Source: Burkholderiales bacterium
GTDB lineage: Bacteria; Pseudomonadota; Gammaproteobacteria; Burkholderiales; SG8-41
Direction: 5' to 3'
Assembly: GCA_019744975.1 (NCBI GenBank)
Contig: JAIETP010000025.1
Span: 1-64,000, forward strand
Length of the DNA: 64,000 nucleotides
Shown here: positions 57,924 to 64,000 of the stretch, one piece after another
How positions within the stretch are numbered: position 1 is the stretch's first letter
How the letters are laid out: each line of letters begins with the position of its first letter
The notes under the pieces: model-generated
The model's input: only the letters and a program-made list of their open reading frames with translations
Database searches by the model: none
What the model was told of the DNA's origin: nothing
Position numbers and translations under genes: made by a program

Positions 57924-58217
57924 TCAGGCCGCCAGTTTCAACGGTTGAACCTTGGGCCGGAGCTTTTTTGCCGCATGCCACAGATCATATGCGGCTTGCA
58001 TCTGTAGCCACGACTCTGCAGAACCTCCGAGTGCGGCGGCCAGGCGTAGTGCCATGTCTGCGCTGACGGACGCCCGGCTGTTGACCACGCGCGAGAGGGC
58101 CACGCGCGAGACACCAAGATTCTTGGCGAACTTACTGACGGTGATACGCCCCTCAGCAAGCACTGTGTCTTGAAGTATCTCTCCAGGATGTGGCGGGTTA
58201 TGCATACGTGTCGTCAT
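57924..58217 (-). CDS. higA: HigA-type antitoxin (XRE, addiction module)
   Basis: MHNPPHPGEILQDTVLAEGRITVSKFAKNLGVSRVALSRVVNSRASVSADMALRLAAALGGSAESWLQMQAAYDLW. Confidence 0.92.
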   Translation of the reverse strand: MTTRMHNPPHPGEILQDTVLAEGRITVSKFAKNLGVSRVALSRVVNSRASVSADMALRLAAALGGSAESWLQMQAAYDLWHAAKKLRPKVQPLKLAA

Positions 58218-58227
58218 TGCTTTTCTC

Positions 58228-58506
58228 CTAGTGGTAGTCCTGATAATCGACCAGCACGGCGTTCGATCCTTCAAAGGTAAACGTCAGGCGCCAGTTCTTT
58301 TCCACATATACAGCCCAGTGGCCTTTGAAATTTCCAGTCAGCGGGTGCCACCGCCAGCCGGCAAGATCCATGTCGGCGGCGCTTGCCGAGGCATCGAGCC
58401 GACCGAGTTGCAAGCGCAGTCGCTTCTCATGTTTTGGCTGAATTCCAGCCTTTGATCCCTCACGAAAAAACTTCTCAAGCCCTTTGTGTCGGAAGGTTTT
58501 GATCAT
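58228..58506 (-). CDS. higB: HigB-type RelE-superfamily toxin
   Basis: MIKTFRHKGLEKFFREGSKAGIQPKHEKRLRLQLGRLDASASAADMDLAGWRWHPLTGNFKGHWAVYVEKNWRLTFTF. Confidence 0.93.
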   Translation of the reverse strand: MIKTFRHKGLEKFFREGSKAGIQPKHEKRLRLQLGRLDASASAADMDLAGWRWHPLTGNFKGHWAVYVEKNWRLTFTFEGSNAVLVDYQDYH

Positions 58507-58544: not shown

Positions 58545-59819
58545 CTACTGAATCGCCCTGACTTTGGGCGGGTTGCTGGTGCCAAAGCTGGGGAGTTTTG
58601 TGACTGCGCGGGCCAGCGTGGTGTCAGCCAGATGCGCGTAGTGCTTTGAGGTCATGCGGGTATCTGCATGCCCGAGTAATTTGCTGATTGTCAGGAGATC
58701 GACGCCGGCCTGCGCCAGGTGTGAGGCATAGGTATGGCGCAATTCGTGGAACGCGATTTGGGGCTTGATCTTGGCCTTTCCGCAAGCCTCCTGCAGCGCC
58801 CGTACATGGTGGTTCTTACCCCATGGGTTGCCGTCTTTTCGGGTGAATACCAGCGCGTCGCCGGTTTTGCCGGCCAACAGGTCCCGGAACAAGTTGACGC
58901 CCTCCGGGTTCAGAGGGACGAACCGCGGCCTCCCGGACTTGGATTGGGCAATGTAGACCTGCCGGGTGCTGAGATTCACGTCGTGCGCACGCATCGCGGC
59001 GAGTTCGCCATGGCGGGCGCCGGTGAGCAGCGCGCCGCGGATGAGCGCCCGGAGATCGGTCGGGCTGGCATTGACCAGCCGCAGACCTTCGGCATCGGTC
59101 AGGAAGCGGATACGTGCCTCGTCGGCTTTGGGGAAGGGGCGCACCTGCCGCCAAGCCGTGTCGTCCCGCACGCGGCCGTCCTGGAATGCTCGATTGAGGA
59201 TGGCCTTGAGAACACTCAGGATGCGGTTTGCGGTTGCCCGGCGTGCCCGTTTTTCGTCGTCGGTCTTGGCGGGTGCCCGGAGGTTGGGTTTCTTGGACAG
59301 TCGGCCAGTGCGGAGCCGGGCCGGTCGACTTGCCAGTTTTTCGTGCCACGCCCGGATGTCGCGAGCGGTCAGGGAGTGGATCAGGTGATCACCAAGGGCT
59401 GGCGCGATGTGTACGCGGATGTTGTGTTCGGTTTCCTTGATGGACTTCCGGTGCTGCCGAAACCACGTCAGGTAGCGGTCAGCCGCGTCTTTCACCCGGT
59501 CAGGTTTCATGACGATCCCGCCGTCAATTTTGACCGTATCGGACAGCCCGCGCGCTTTATCCTGGGCCTGGTGGAAGTTCAGCACATCCGCGCCGTTCGC
59601 GTCTTGGTAGTCATCTGCCGCGCCGATGGCGCGCAGGGCGTATTTCCCGCGCGGCAGCGCGAGTTTGGCGGTCCATGTGCCATAACCCTCGCCCGTGCGC
59701 CTGTAGATCAGCGTGAGGCCGCTTCCGATGGCTTTGTAGTGCCGGAGTTTGACCTTGAGGCGCAGGCGCGCGCTACGGGTTTCCAGTCTTGAATCTCGCG
59801 CTGATTGCGCCATGGTCAA
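58545..59819 (-). CDS. tyrosine recombinase/integrase
   Basis: C-terminal R-HxLRHTYASH...LLGHADTRMTSKHYAHL; N-terminal Arm-DNA-binding-like domain; abuts attR. Confidence 0.95.
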   Translation of the reverse strand: MTMAQSARDSRLETRSARLRLKVKLRHYKAIGSGLTLIYRRTGEGYGTWTAKLALPRGKYALRAIGAADDYQDANGADVLNFHQAQDKARGLSDTVKIDGGIVMKPDRVKDAADRYLTWFRQHRKSIKETEHNIRVHIAPALGDHLIHSLTARDIRAWHEKLASRPARLRTGRLSKKPNLRAPAKTDDEKRARRATANRILSVLKAILNRAFQDGRVRDDTAWRQVRPFPKADEARIRFLTDAEGLRLVNASPTDLRALIRGALLTGARHGELAAMRAHDVNLSTRQVYIAQSKSGRPRFVPLNPEGVNLFRDLLAGKTGDALVFTRKDGNPWGKNHHVRALQEACGKAKIKPQIAFHELRHTYASHLAQAGVDLLTISKLLGHADTRMTSKHYAHLADTTLARAVTKLPSFGTSNPPKVRAIQ

Positions 59820-60062: not shown

Positions 60063-60944
60063 TCAGTGTTTGTGCGCGGGCAGCACGTTCAGGGGAATGC
60101 GCAGGTAGGCCACGCCATTGTCTTCCGCAGGTGGCAGTGCGCCGCCGCGGATATTCACCTGGATGGACGGCAGGATCAGGGTCGGCATTCCCAGCGTGGC
60201 ATCACGTTTCCTGCGCATGCTGACGAAATCATCCTCGCTGATGCCATCGCGCACATGAATGTTGTGTGCGCGTTGCTCTGCGACCGTGGTCTGCCATGCC
60301 GCGTTCCGCGATGCGGGCGGGTAGTCGTGACAGACGTAAATCGCCGTTTCCGGCGGCAGGTCGAGCAGGCGCCTGATTGAGCGGTAAAGCTGTCGCGCAT
60401 CACCACCCGGGAAATCCGCGCGGGCGGTACCCACATCCGGCATGAACAGCGTGTCACCAACAAACACCGAGCCATCCACGAGGTACGCCATGTCAGCCGG
60501 GGTGTGGCCGGGCACCAGCATCGCAGTGGCCTCGATGCCGCCGATCATGAAACGTTCGCCGTCGCGGAACAGCTGGTCGAACTGGCTGCCGTCAGGCAGG
60601 AAACCGCGGTCAAGGTTGTAAATCTTCTTGAAGGTTGTCTGAACCAGGCGGATGTTCTCGCCGATGGCGATGCGGCCGCCTGCGCGCTCCTTCAGGTAGT
60701 GCGCGGCGGAGAGGTGGTCGGCATGGGCGTGCGTTTCCAGTATCCAGTCCACGCCCAGGCGATGTTCCTTGAGGTAGGCCAGCACCTGATCGGCCGCTGC
60801 TGTGCTGGTGCGCCCTGATTTGAACTCGTAGTCGAGCACAGGGTCGATCACGGCGGAGCGCCGGGTCGCGGGATCCCATAGGACGTAGGTGATTGTCCCG
60901 GTAGAGGGATCAAAGAAGGCTTGGGTATTTGCGCGCTGGCTCAT
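60063..60944 (-). CDS. MBL-fold hydrolase (Blh / persulfide dioxygenase-like)
   Basis: AFFDPSTGTITYVLWDPATRRSAVIDPVLDYEFKSGRTSTAAADQVLAYL, ETHAHADHLSAAHYLKE, GDTLFMPDVGTARADFPGGDARQLYRSI. Confidence 0.92.
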   Translation of the reverse strand: MSQRANTQAFFDPSTGTITYVLWDPATRRSAVIDPVLDYEFKSGRTSTAAADQVLAYLKEHRLGVDWILETHAHADHLSAAHYLKERAGGRIAIGENIRLVQTTFKKIYNLDRGFLPDGSQFDQLFRDGERFMIGGIEATAMLVPGHTPADMAYLVDGSVFVGDTLFMPDVGTARADFPGGDARQLYRSIRRLLDLPPETAIYVCHDYPPASRNAAWQTTVAEQRAHNIHVRDGISEDDFVSMRRKRDATLGMPTLILPSIQVNIRGGALPPAEDNGVAYLRIPLNVLPAHKH

Positions 60945-60975
60945 GGGGTTCTCGGTTTTCTTGGGGTTTGCATTT

Positions 60976-61008
60976 AATATATTGACTTACATTATATATA
61001 ATTATATA
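60976..61008. promoter_or_regulatory. AT-rich palindromes in divergent promoter, candidate ArsR/BigR-type operator
   Basis: AATATATT (60976-60983) and TATATAATTATATA (60995-61008). Confidence 0.5.
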
Positions 61009-61038
61009 TTAATAGCAAGTCCATTCAGTGAGTGACCC

Positions 61039-61374
61039 ATGCCATCTGCTGCTATTTCCCCCAATCACGCCATCGATGTTGATGCCTTGCGTCATAACGC
61101 AGACCGCGCCGTCAGTGCATTGCGGCTGCTCGCCAACAAAGACCGCCTGTTGTTGTTGTGCCAGCTCGCGCAGGGTGAAATGTGCGTCAGCGAGCTGGAG
61201 GCGCAACTCGACATTCGTCAGCCGACATTGTCACAACAGCTGGGTGTTCTGCGCAGCGAGGAGGTCGTCAGTACCCGCCGCCAGGGCAAAAACATTTTTT
61301 ATGGCGCTGCTGACCCGGCCCTGCTCGAAATCCTCATGCTGTTGCATCGCCTCTACTGCAGGAAGGATTCATGA
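61039..61374 (+). CDS. ArsR-family repressor (BigR/SqrR-like)
   Basis: LRLLANKDRLLLLCQLAQGEMCVSELEAQLDIRQPTLSQQLGVLRSEEVVSTRRQGKNIFYGAAD. Confidence 0.9.
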   Translation: MPSAAISPNHAIDVDALRHNADRAVSALRLLANKDRLLLLCQLAQGEMCVSELEAQLDIRQPTLSQQLGVLRSEEVVSTRRQGKNIFYGAADPALLEILMLLHRLYCRKDS

Positions 61375-61808
61375 TGGCGATCGCCTGGGACATGTTCACG
61401 CCGTGGTCGGCGCTTGCGGGCGGGGTGCTGATCGGTTTTGCGGCAGGGATGTTCGTGCTGCTCAATGGCCGTATTGCCGGTATCAGCGGCATCATCGGCG
61501 GCTTGCTGAAACCGGCCCGGGGTGACGTGGTGTGGCGCATGGCATTTATCGGCGGTTTGGTGGTCGCGCCGATGGTGTATGCGCTGGCGGCGACATTGCC
61601 CGTGCCGCAGATTGACGCCGGCTACGGCGCATTGGTGGCGGCCGGCCTGTTGGTCGGCATCGGTACGCGTTATGGCTCCGGTTGCACCAGCGGTCATGGC
61701 GTCTGCGGCTTGTCACGGCTGTCGCCCCGTTCACTGGCGGCGACGGCGGTCTTCATGGCGGCGGGTTTTGTCACCGTCTTCATGATGCGTCATCTGTTCA
61801 ACGCCTGA
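61371..61808 (+). CDS. YeeE/YedE-family (PmpA-like) transporter half
   Basis: GGVLIGFAAGMFVLLNGRIAGISGIIGGLL...GIGTRYGSGCTSGHGVCGLSRLS. Confidence 0.9.
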   Translation: MMAIAWDMFTPWSALAGGVLIGFAAGMFVLLNGRIAGISGIIGGLLKPARGDVVWRMAFIGGLVVAPMVYALAATLPVPQIDAGYGALVAAGLLVGIGTRYGSGCTSGHGVCGLSRLSPRSLAATAVFMAAGFVTVFMMRHLFNA

Positions 61809-61818
61809 GGAACCGTCC

Positions 61819-62244
61819 ATGCATACCCTTGCTTCTTTACTCGCCGGCCTGGTTTTCGGGCTGGGTCTCATCTTGTCCGGCATGGCGAACCCGGCGAAGG
61901 TGCTGGGCTTCCTCGACCTTGCCGGAGCCTGGGATCCGTCGCTCGTATTCGTGATGGGGGGCGCGATTGCGGTCGGTGCAGTGGCTTTTTTTGTTGCGCA
62001 CAAACGGGTGGTTTCCCTGCTGGGCTCAACCATGAGTTTGCCGACATCGCGCGACATTGATCGTCGACTGGTCGGCGGCAGTCTGCTGTTCGGCATCGGT
62101 TGGGGTATTGCCGGGTTCTGTCCGGGTCCGGGGCTGGTCGCGCTGGGCATGGGCGAGCTGAAGGCGCTGGTGTTTGTCGCGGCGATGCTGGTGGGCATGG
62201 GGATATGGGAATTATTTGAAACCCGGGCGAGGGCCGCGAAATGA
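61819..62244 (+). CDS. YeeE/YedE-family (PmpB-like) transporter half
   Basis: LVFGLGLILSGMANPAKVLGFLDLAGAWDPSL...GIGWGIAGFCPGPGLVALG. Confidence 0.9.
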   Translation: MHTLASLLAGLVFGLGLILSGMANPAKVLGFLDLAGAWDPSLVFVMGGAIAVGAVAFFVAHKRVVSLLGSTMSLPTSRDIDRRLVGGSLLFGIGWGIAGFCPGPGLVALGMGELKALVFVAAMLVGMGIWELFETRARAAK

Positions 62245-62418
62245 GCAATCTCTGCGTGATGTCTTTGTGCCAAACGGTTCACCGACGCAAGCCCAATTAG
62301 TGGATGGCGGGCTGCTGGTGTTGCCGCATTGCGACGCCCATGGGCATGCGCTAAAGTCCGGACGCCCTCCGCGCGTTTTTCGAGGACGGAGGCGCTTAAA
62401 TCGTTCGCAGGAGTCCAC

Positions 62419-62958
62419 ATGAATCAGAAAGTCCGTCTGGTCGTTCCGGAAGCACCGTCGCCGCAGACTGTCGCGGTCACCGAGACCCGCGCTGTCGCCA
62501 AAGGCGGCATCCGCCTCGGCGTGCTCGACAACAGCAAGGGCAATGCCGACCACCTGTTGCGTTTCATCGTCGATGGCGTCAAGGCGCTGTTGCCGGTCGC
62601 CTCGGTGGTGTCGCTGCGCAAGGACAGCGTCAGCCTGCCGGCGCCAGATGCCATCCTTGATCAACTCGCCGCGGAATCGGATTACGTCATCACCGCAATG
62701 GCCGATTGAGGGTCGTGCACGTCGTGGAGTGTCCACGACATGGCAAACCTCAGCAAACGCGGTCTGACGACCGCGGTGATCTGTTCCGGCCCCTTCATGA
62801 AACTGGGGCAGGCGCAGGCGCGCGTATTCGGCGTGCCCGATCTTCCGCTGCTGCTGATCCCGCATCCGCTGGGTGGTGTGAGCATCGAACAGGTGCAGGC
62901 GCGCGCTGAAGTCGCGGTGCCGCAGTTCGTGAAATTGCTGAAGGAGAAAGCGCAATGA
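62419..62958 (+). CDS. UGSC-family selenoprotein, in-frame UGA (62707-62709) read as selenocysteine
   Basis: Same frame before and after TGA: ...DQLAAESDYVITAMAD-U-GSCTSWSVHDMANLSKRGLTTAVICSGPFMKLGQAQARVFGVPDLPLLLIPHPLGGVSIEQVQARAEVAVPQFVKLLKEKAQ*; RBS GCAGGAG upstream; hairpin right after UGA. Confidence 0.9.
62721..62739 (+). promoter_or_regulatory. candidate bacterial SECIS hairpin
   Basis: GTCGTGGA-GTG-TCCACGAC, 8 bp perfect stem, G first in apical loop, 19 nt between UGA and loop. Confidence 0.75.
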
Positions 62959-64000
62959 GCAAGCTTGCGCAGTTGCTGCAGGCGTCGGGCGCGAGCGTTG
63001 AAGCCGAGGATGATTTTGATGCGATCAATGCGCTGATGCGGGAGAAGGGCTGGAGCGACGGCCTGCCGATCGTGCCGCCGACGGAAGCCCGCGTTGCGGC
63101 GATGCTGGAATATTGTGACCGGCCCTGGGATCAGCCGATCGCGAAAATTCCGCCGCGCTGGGGCGAGGCGACGCCTTTGCTGCTCGCTGCCAATGCGGTA
63201 ATGGCGGGCTGCCAGCCGCGTTATTTTCCGCTGTTCATGCTGGCCATTGAGGCGATGTGCGAGGAACCGCTGAACCTCTACGGCGTGCAGGCGACGACGC
63301 ACTTGTGTGCACCGCTGGTCATCGTCAACGGTCCGGTTGCGAAAGAGCTGGACATCAACTCCGGCCACAACGCATTCGGGCCGGGGCATCAGGCCAACGC
63401 CACCATCGGCCGCGCGATCCGCCTGGCGCTGGTCAACATCGGCGGTGCGATTCCGGCGCTGGGCGACATGTCGACCTTTGGTTCACCGGCCAAGTACAGT
63501 TACCTGGTCGCCGAGAATGAAGCGGAAAGTCCGTGGGAGCCGCTGCATGTCGAGCGCGGTTTGCCGATTGATGCGAGTGCGGTGACGGTGATCGGCGCCG
63601 AATGTCCGCACAACGTCAACGATCATGAAAGCCTGACCGCCGAGAGCGTGCTGAAAACGATCGCCGGCACCATGGGTATTGCCGGGGTCAACGATATTTA
63701 TTACCAGTCGCAGCCGTTGGTGATCATGGGGCCGGAACACGCAAAAATGGCGGCCTCGGGTTTTACCAAAGCCGCGGCCAAACGCTTCATCCAGCAGCGT
63801 GCCCATGTCGCGGTCGGCAAACTCTCGCAGGAAAACATCGATCGCCGCGTCAAGATCACCTTCAAGGACCGGCTGGCCAATCCCAAACCGGATGATGTGG
63901 TCTACGCGGTGCAGCGCCCCGAGGATCTGCTGATCGCGGTGATCGGCGGGGCGGGTAAACATTCCGCCTACGTGCCGACCTTCGGCGCGACCAAACCGGT
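62955..64000 (+). CDS. conserved protein downstream of UGSC selenoprotein (partial, runs off window end)
   Basis: ATG overlaps selenoprotein stop (ATGA); open to window end: MSKLAQLLQASGASVEAEDDFDAINALMREKGWSDGLPIVPPTEARVAAML...YGVQATTHLCAPLVIVNGPVAKELDINSGHNAFGPGHQANATIGRAIRLALVNIGGAIPALGDMSTFG...; missing from ORF track because no stop lies in the window. Confidence 0.85.
   Translation, partial: MSKLAQLLQASGASVEAEDDFDAINALMREKGWSDGLPIVPPTEARVAAMLEYCDRPWDQPIAKIPPRWGEATPLLLAANAVMAGCQPRYFPLFMLAIEAMCEEPLNLYGVQATTHLCAPLVIVNGPVAKELDINSGHNAFGPGHQANATIGRAIRLALVNIGGAIPALGDMSTFGSPAKYSYLVAENEAESPWEPLHVERGLPIDASAVTVIGAECPHNVNDHESLTAESVLKTIAGTMGIAGVNDIYYQSQPLVIMGPEHAKMAASGFTKAAAKRFIQQRAHVAVGKLSQENIDRRVKITFKDRLANPKPDDVVYAVQRPEDLLIAVIGGAGKHSAYVPTFGATKP

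Follow-up and report, generated by a model that had tools for sequence, protein, structure and literature searches.

The 64,000-nucleotide stretch of a Burkholderiales contig analysed here (the window) raises the question whether a TGA codon inside a reading frame ends a short gene or specifies selenocysteine (Sec), and what a selenoprotein read in this way might do. From ATG 62419 on the forward strand, the frame is open to TGA 62707-62709 and runs on to TGA 62956-62958, as the original prediction had read it. With the first TGA as Sec, the gene (62419..62958, +) encodes 179 amino acids, with Sec-Gly-Ser-Cys at residues 97-100 in the context AMAD-UGA-GSC-TSWSVHDMANL; the Sec codon lies at 62707..62709 (+). 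A Shine-Dalgarno sequence, AGGAG, is seen directly in the sequence at 62409..62413 (+).

The read-through product scores 126.1 bits with the NCBIfam model NF041046 (UGSC_fam), a thin margin over the cut-off of 125, and 153.6 bits (E 7e-45) with the Pfam model PF24696 (UGSC), for which the cut-off is 25. The PF24696 match is one profile alignment, covering model positions 3-171 of 172 and spanning the UGA on both sides. The source genome holds nine UGSC loci, and all nine have TGA at the Sec position. Since a single match crosses the UGA and the TGA recurs at the same position in every one of these loci, chance read-through is excluded. In the part after the UGA, dN is 0.114 and dS 0.464 (dN/dS 0.25) relative to the nearest relative (L088, 89% identical), and 0.189 and 0.778 (dN/dS 0.24) relative to the next (L077); judged from these rates, the downstream sequence is under protein-level constraint. 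The assignment to the UGSC family and the conservation of both flanks of the UGA, both part of the original prediction, are thereby borne out. The word ‘hidden’ fits naive ORF calling, and not the current NCBIfam and Pfam models, which recognise the family.

The host has what Sec insertion takes. The source genome (3.69 Mb, 99% complete) contains selA (579 bits), selB (424 bits) and a tRNA-Sec with anticodon UCA (75.9 bits) within 7 kb on contig C3, and selD (420 bits), which itself carries one in-frame TGA, on contig C20, so that selA, selB, selC and selD, the genes named for checking in the original prediction, are all present. Downstream of the UGA, a SECIS-like hairpin, GUCGUGGA-GUG-UCCACGAC, occupies 62721..62739 (+), with an 8-bp stem in which all eight pairs are formed and a GUG apical loop at 62729-62731; it begins 12 nt past the UGA, and its loop lies 19 nt past it. 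Because the full Sec machinery occurs together with this hairpin, SelB-dependent insertion of Sec is the expected reading.

The hairpin stands out in comparison across the family. When the 54-nt stretch from the UGA was compared with 200 dinucleotide shuffles, it folded better than 198 of them (z -2.6), whereas z is only -1.4 relative to codon-preserving shuffles; the folding energy of a single gene is not diagnostic. At least seven of the eight pairs are formed in 91 of 105 distinct TGA homologues, and pairing across these homologues reaches 91% in register, compared with 18-50% in slid registers. U stands at the second loop position in 97 of the 105 TGA genes and in none of 6 Cys genes (Fisher 1.3e-6). 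Among 31 diverse sequences, 27 double-change paired cells were counted where 10 are expected, and none of 500 shuffles matched this, a count to which no probability is attached as the sequences are related. Three of the nine copies in the source genome, namely two fused ones and the copy on contig C27, do not form the same hairpin. By these comparisons, a covarying hairpin of the bacterial SECIS type follows the UGA, and its binding by SelB is predicted.

The codon at the Sec position varies among homologues. At 80 loci of named genomes that carry the partner gene described below, it is TGA in 84 domains, TGC in 4, TGT in 2 and GGC in 1, and a further homologue, in Blastococcus (L135:7675), has TAG. 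Most Cys homologues retain CGSC. A selA gene above the cut-off was found in 13 of 13 genomes with the TGA form and in none of 6 with the Cys form, Natrialba asiatica and five others (Fisher 3.7e-5, some of the genomes being incomplete MAGs), nor was one found above the cut-off in the one genome with the Gly form. The Blastococcus with the TAG codon has its own tRNA-Sec with anticodon CUA, which ARAGORN labels as tRNA-Pyl. UAG-coded selenoproteins with the UGSC motif are already known in Geodermatophilaceae (PMC5330540), and the Blastococcus form is a repeat of that case. The resolving Cys is replaced, giving UGSS, in L075:4980-5327 (the end of G000:C27) and in L136, and the fused protein of L144 has lost Sec altogether (GGNP). 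Close relatives of the window's environmental betaproteobacterial locus occur in MAGs titled ‘Bordetella parapertussis’ (L086, L090, L129 and L137), names that look like taxonomic mislabels.

No homologue that truly ends at the UGA was found; Cys homologues continue as the same protein, and about 25 run into a fused partner. The original prediction had held a pseudogene unlikely, and the read-through homologues, the Cys and UAG forms and the dN/dS after the UGA all agree with this. Thus, 62419-62958 almost certainly encodes a selenoprotein, with UGA 62707 read as Sec.

The gene is an ordinary further member of a family that is already known and modelled. According to the 2008 metagenome study of Zhang and Gladyshev (PMC2398784), UGSC ranks with the most abundant selenoprotein families of bacteria in aquatic metagenomes. 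The window gene shares with the family described there Sec-Gly-Ser-Cys, the SECIS-like hairpin and Cys homologues, and differs by the variant SWSVHD after the motif and by its marginal NCBIfam score. The original prediction stated that the biochemical function is not established, and in the literature consulted, up to a 2026 review (PMC13188914), the family is still listed as uncharacterised.

What UGSC does may be approached through the gene that follows it. The next gene had been described as starting at the far stop in an ATGA overlap; this start, ATG 62955, stands, and the gene is more than a neighbour. It runs from 62955 past the window end at 64000 (+) to C6:64067, encoding 370 amino acids. 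Searches of Pfam and NCBIfam with a threshold as loose as E 10 gave chance-level matches and assigned it to no family, and a sequence search revealed no related PDB structure. Its profile has at least 583 relatives in the GTDB genome set. The best 80 of these include Betaproteobacteria, Gammaproteobacteria, Alphaproteobacteria, Chloroflexota, Rokubacteria, Nitrospinota, actinobacteria, a Bacillus and a haloarchaeon, among others, and 76 of the 80 loci contain a UGSC domain, usually directly adjoining and on the same strand. In the reverse direction, the partner lies within 310 bp at 37 of 39 UGSC loci (nine from the source genome, thirty from relatives), and the other two are cut by contig ends. 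In about 25 distinct ORFs, a single chain carries both UGSC and the partner, and the UGA lies inside nearly all of these ORFs. Among 61 related genomes, both genes occur in the same 40 and both are missing from the other 21, and their copy numbers correlate (r = 0.97; the genomes are related, so no probability is given). The partner, the larger subunit, has many invariant residues, including DGxP, NGP and NATIGR, and a nearly invariant Cys that is absent in one fusion type (MAGG). On this genomic evidence, UGSC and its partner very probably form one functional unit, as an operon or as a single fused chain.

A fusion of UGSC to ‘Unknown_1’, a domain of limited distribution, is reported in the 2008 GOS study (PMC2398784). 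We take the partner to be this domain, matched by its description as a fused domain only; in the window it is a separate, overlapping gene, and the linkage is far wider here than that study states. Two tandem partner genes stand beside a single UGSC gene at L072:649-2732 (G000:C25), and an orphan partner gene lies at C3:129838, which suggests that one UGSC may serve several partners. Copies of UGSC peak at 47 matches in one genome of the same bacterial family (G021, 5.7 Mb), an extreme selenoprotein paralogue expansion.

UGSC-partner modules sit among catabolic genes. Paralogues in the source genome lie near genes for TctC solute receptors, amidases, an aldehyde dehydrogenase, TauD and an amidohydrolase. 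Within 1.3 kb of modules, TctC genes take up 13.2% of the DNA, against 5.2% in the rest of the same loci, an enrichment of only 2.5-fold for a gene that is common in Burkholderiales. The closest paralogue of the window copy lies on contig C7, downstream of two TctC genes, and its partner is 57% identical; the window locus itself has no TctC or comparable catabolic neighbour. Directly upstream of the window locus, at 60063-62244, is a cluster of the sulfide-detoxification type, which encodes a persulfide dioxygenase-like MBL protein, two half-size transporters (YeeE/DUF6691) and an ArsR regulator resembling BigR. A role in sulfur metabolism, considered on account of this bigR-pmpAB-blh-like operon, was rejected, as the operon is found beside UGSC at 0 of 80 other loci. 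Further upstream are a tyrosine-recombinase-like integrase (58545-59819) and, beside it, what looks on inspection of the translations by eye like a toxin-antitoxin pair of the HigBA type (57924-58506).

The predicted structure suggests a fold class for UGSC. An AlphaFold2 model of the window protein, built with 50 sequences, has a pLDDT of 92.6 and a pTM of 0.85. In its topology, beta-alpha-beta-alpha-beta-(Sec)alpha-beta-alpha-beta-alpha, five strands alternate with five helices; Sec97 follows the third strand and directly precedes helix 98-113. The best PDB matches found with Foldseek are flavodiiron proteins (E 3e-5, presumably through the flavodoxin domain) and other Rossmann-type folds, at a TM-score of about 0.5, and no thioredoxin is among the 50 matches listed. 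The fold is thus predicted to be flavodoxin/Rossmann-like, and not thioredoxin-like as suggested earlier; a thioredoxin-like fold was rejected in view of the predicted topology, Foldseek and profile comparison. A natural UGSC-partner fusion of 539 amino acids was modelled with a pLDDT of 94.3 and a pTM of 0.94, which indicates that the two parts hold a defined arrangement, as predicted for the fusion and not for the window pair. In a Foldseek search with the fusion, Rossmann-type matches fit the UGSC half only. Sequence searches for solved structures of UGSC or GRDB gave none that was convincing.

Profile comparison connects UGSC with selenoprotein B. With hhalign, UGSC aligns with the C-terminal Sec domain of GRDB (PF07355) at a probability of 87.5%, Sec on Sec. 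The score is 43.8, and the highest-scoring of 200 column shuffles reached 23.4 (0/200), the control here being shuffles and not other real Rossmann-like families. The reversed profile, the partner, the GrdB N-terminus, a GrdE-like protein and a sequence that we take to be E. coli TrxA each remained below 1%, with 0.8% for TrxA. Among 50 UGSC proteins, the commonest NCBIfam match after UGSC_fam is TIGR01917 (gly_red_sel_B; 20 of 50, best 1.7e-4), followed by TIGR01918 (7), sarcosine GrdF (7), betaine GrdH (4) and PrdB (3). These HMMER matches are mostly weak and far below the curated cut-offs. The window protein matches TIGR01917 at E 0.02 (residues 82-160 on 332-404), with 13.8 bits against a curated cut-off of 602.2, and has no PF07355 match at E <= 10. 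By profile similarity, UGSC is likely a remote relative of the selenoprotein-B Sec domain, not a member of that family.

UGSC shows a remote profile likeness to GrdB, GrdF, GrdH and PrdB (PF07355, TIGR01917, TIGR01918, TIGR04483) over the Sec-helix region, with Sec on Sec, and has in common with them a paralogue expansion, which in GrdB goes with substrate. In contrast to selenoprotein B, UGSC is a free-standing domain that lacks the N-terminal part of GrdB, and its partner is unrelated to GrdE and does not qualify as a GrdE/PrdA (pyruvoyl) subunit. Homology of the partner to GrdE was rejected at a profile probability of 0.25%, the comparison protein being one from the relative genome G021 that was called GrdE-like by eye. 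With the partner unconnected to GrdE at the profile level, the GrdB analogy extends to the Sec domain only. The hosts differ as well, many UGSC hosts being freshwater, groundwater or soil proteobacteria and not Stickland fermenters. The same genomes carry GRDB-like UPNC/UPQC selenoproteins, which have a PF07355 C-terminal domain and a UxxC motif with Sec, and which form a family apart from UGSC with an extra C-terminal region of their own. One of these, at G000:C3:211584-211799 (L162), reads ...LLTPV-TGA-PNCTCAVGALGHY... (UPNC); it represents a second family of the Sec type in the source genome and is found in many related genomes as well. In the relative genome G021, which belongs to the same bacterial family, a complete GrdB that contains TGA (UGTC) is followed by a GrdE-like gene (L157).

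A selenoprotein-B-type Sec domain, the Cys of the UxxC motif, a near-obligate larger subunit and catabolic paralogue expansion together lead us to read the pair as a two-subunit reductive enzyme. GrdB-type systems cleave glycine, sarcosine, betaine and proline reductively, and by analogy we propose, at about even odds, GrdB-like chemistry for the pair. The UGSC domain would present Sec97 at a helix N-terminus as a selenolate nucleophile, while the partner would bind and orient a small substrate, probably of the carboxylate type. Sec would attack or reductively cleave a C-N, C-X or similar bond, Cys100 would resolve the selenium intermediate as an Se-S bond, and a cellular thiol system would re-reduce the Se-S form. 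The partner would give substrate specificity, and paralogues would act on different substrates, in the manner of those of GrdB. The substrates over which GrdB-type proteins have diversified include, by one proposal, fluoroacetate (PMC10838667). As a whole, the explanation that the Sec-read UGSC protein and its partner form a two-subunit reductive selenoenzyme, kin to selenoprotein B, is the best that we can offer, with a probability of roughly 0.5.

The pair might instead be one enzyme that uses Sec in a manner unlike GrdB, with the partner as catalyst and UGSC as its reductase or activator, or with Sec carrying a group such as sulfur. Near-obligate pairing and fusion, the invariant motifs and Cys of the larger partner and the adjoining sulfide-detoxification-type operon would suit such an arrangement; we consider it rather doubtful, as that operon is absent from the 80 other loci, the partner Cys is missing in the MAGG fusion type, and the profile kinship points to Sec proteins that attack their substrates. 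A general role of UGSC as thiol-disulfide oxidoreductase or peroxidase, acting through a thioredoxin-like UxxC site as suggested in the 2008 study (PMC2398784), is improbable. UGSC does share a UxxC motif at a helix N-terminus with thioredoxin-fold selenoproteins, and most Cys homologues keep CGSC; however, its predicted topology differs, with Sec after the third strand and flavodoxin/Rossmann-type folds as best structural matches, profile likeness to TrxA is lacking, the 25 NCBIfam families listed for 50 UGSC proteins include no thioredoxin-superfamily model, and the near-obligate partner, together with as many as 47 matches in one genome, also argues against this role. The reading of UGA 62707 as a true stop, with a 96-residue product and a downstream remnant or separate ORF, has in its favour that UGA counts among the standard stops of table 11 and that a 72-aa ORF starts at ATG 62740, but it is hardly tenable beside the Sec machinery, the covarying hairpin, the Cys and UAG homologues, a dN/dS of about 0.25 after the UGA and the fused ORFs, and these sequence data allow both the stop-codon and the pseudogene reading to be set aside.

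Returning to the two-subunit reductive selenoenzyme, we tentatively raise the possibility of an unrecognised large class, in which a stand-alone Sec domain of the GrdB/PrdB type acts with a catalytic or substrate-binding subunit; in free-living bacteria that are apparently not Stickland fermenters, dozens of paralogues per genome would each have a small molecule of their own as substrate. Beyond the published work that we found, the near-obligate partner, the predicted flavodoxin/Rossmann-like fold and the probable kinship with selenoprotein B are new. The activity would probably escape assays of UGSC alone. What gives the locus its worth is not the gene itself but its partner and its probable kinship, through which the function of the family becomes testable: partner, fold class and probable relatives turn UGSC from an unknown selenoprotein into a testable two-subunit enzyme.
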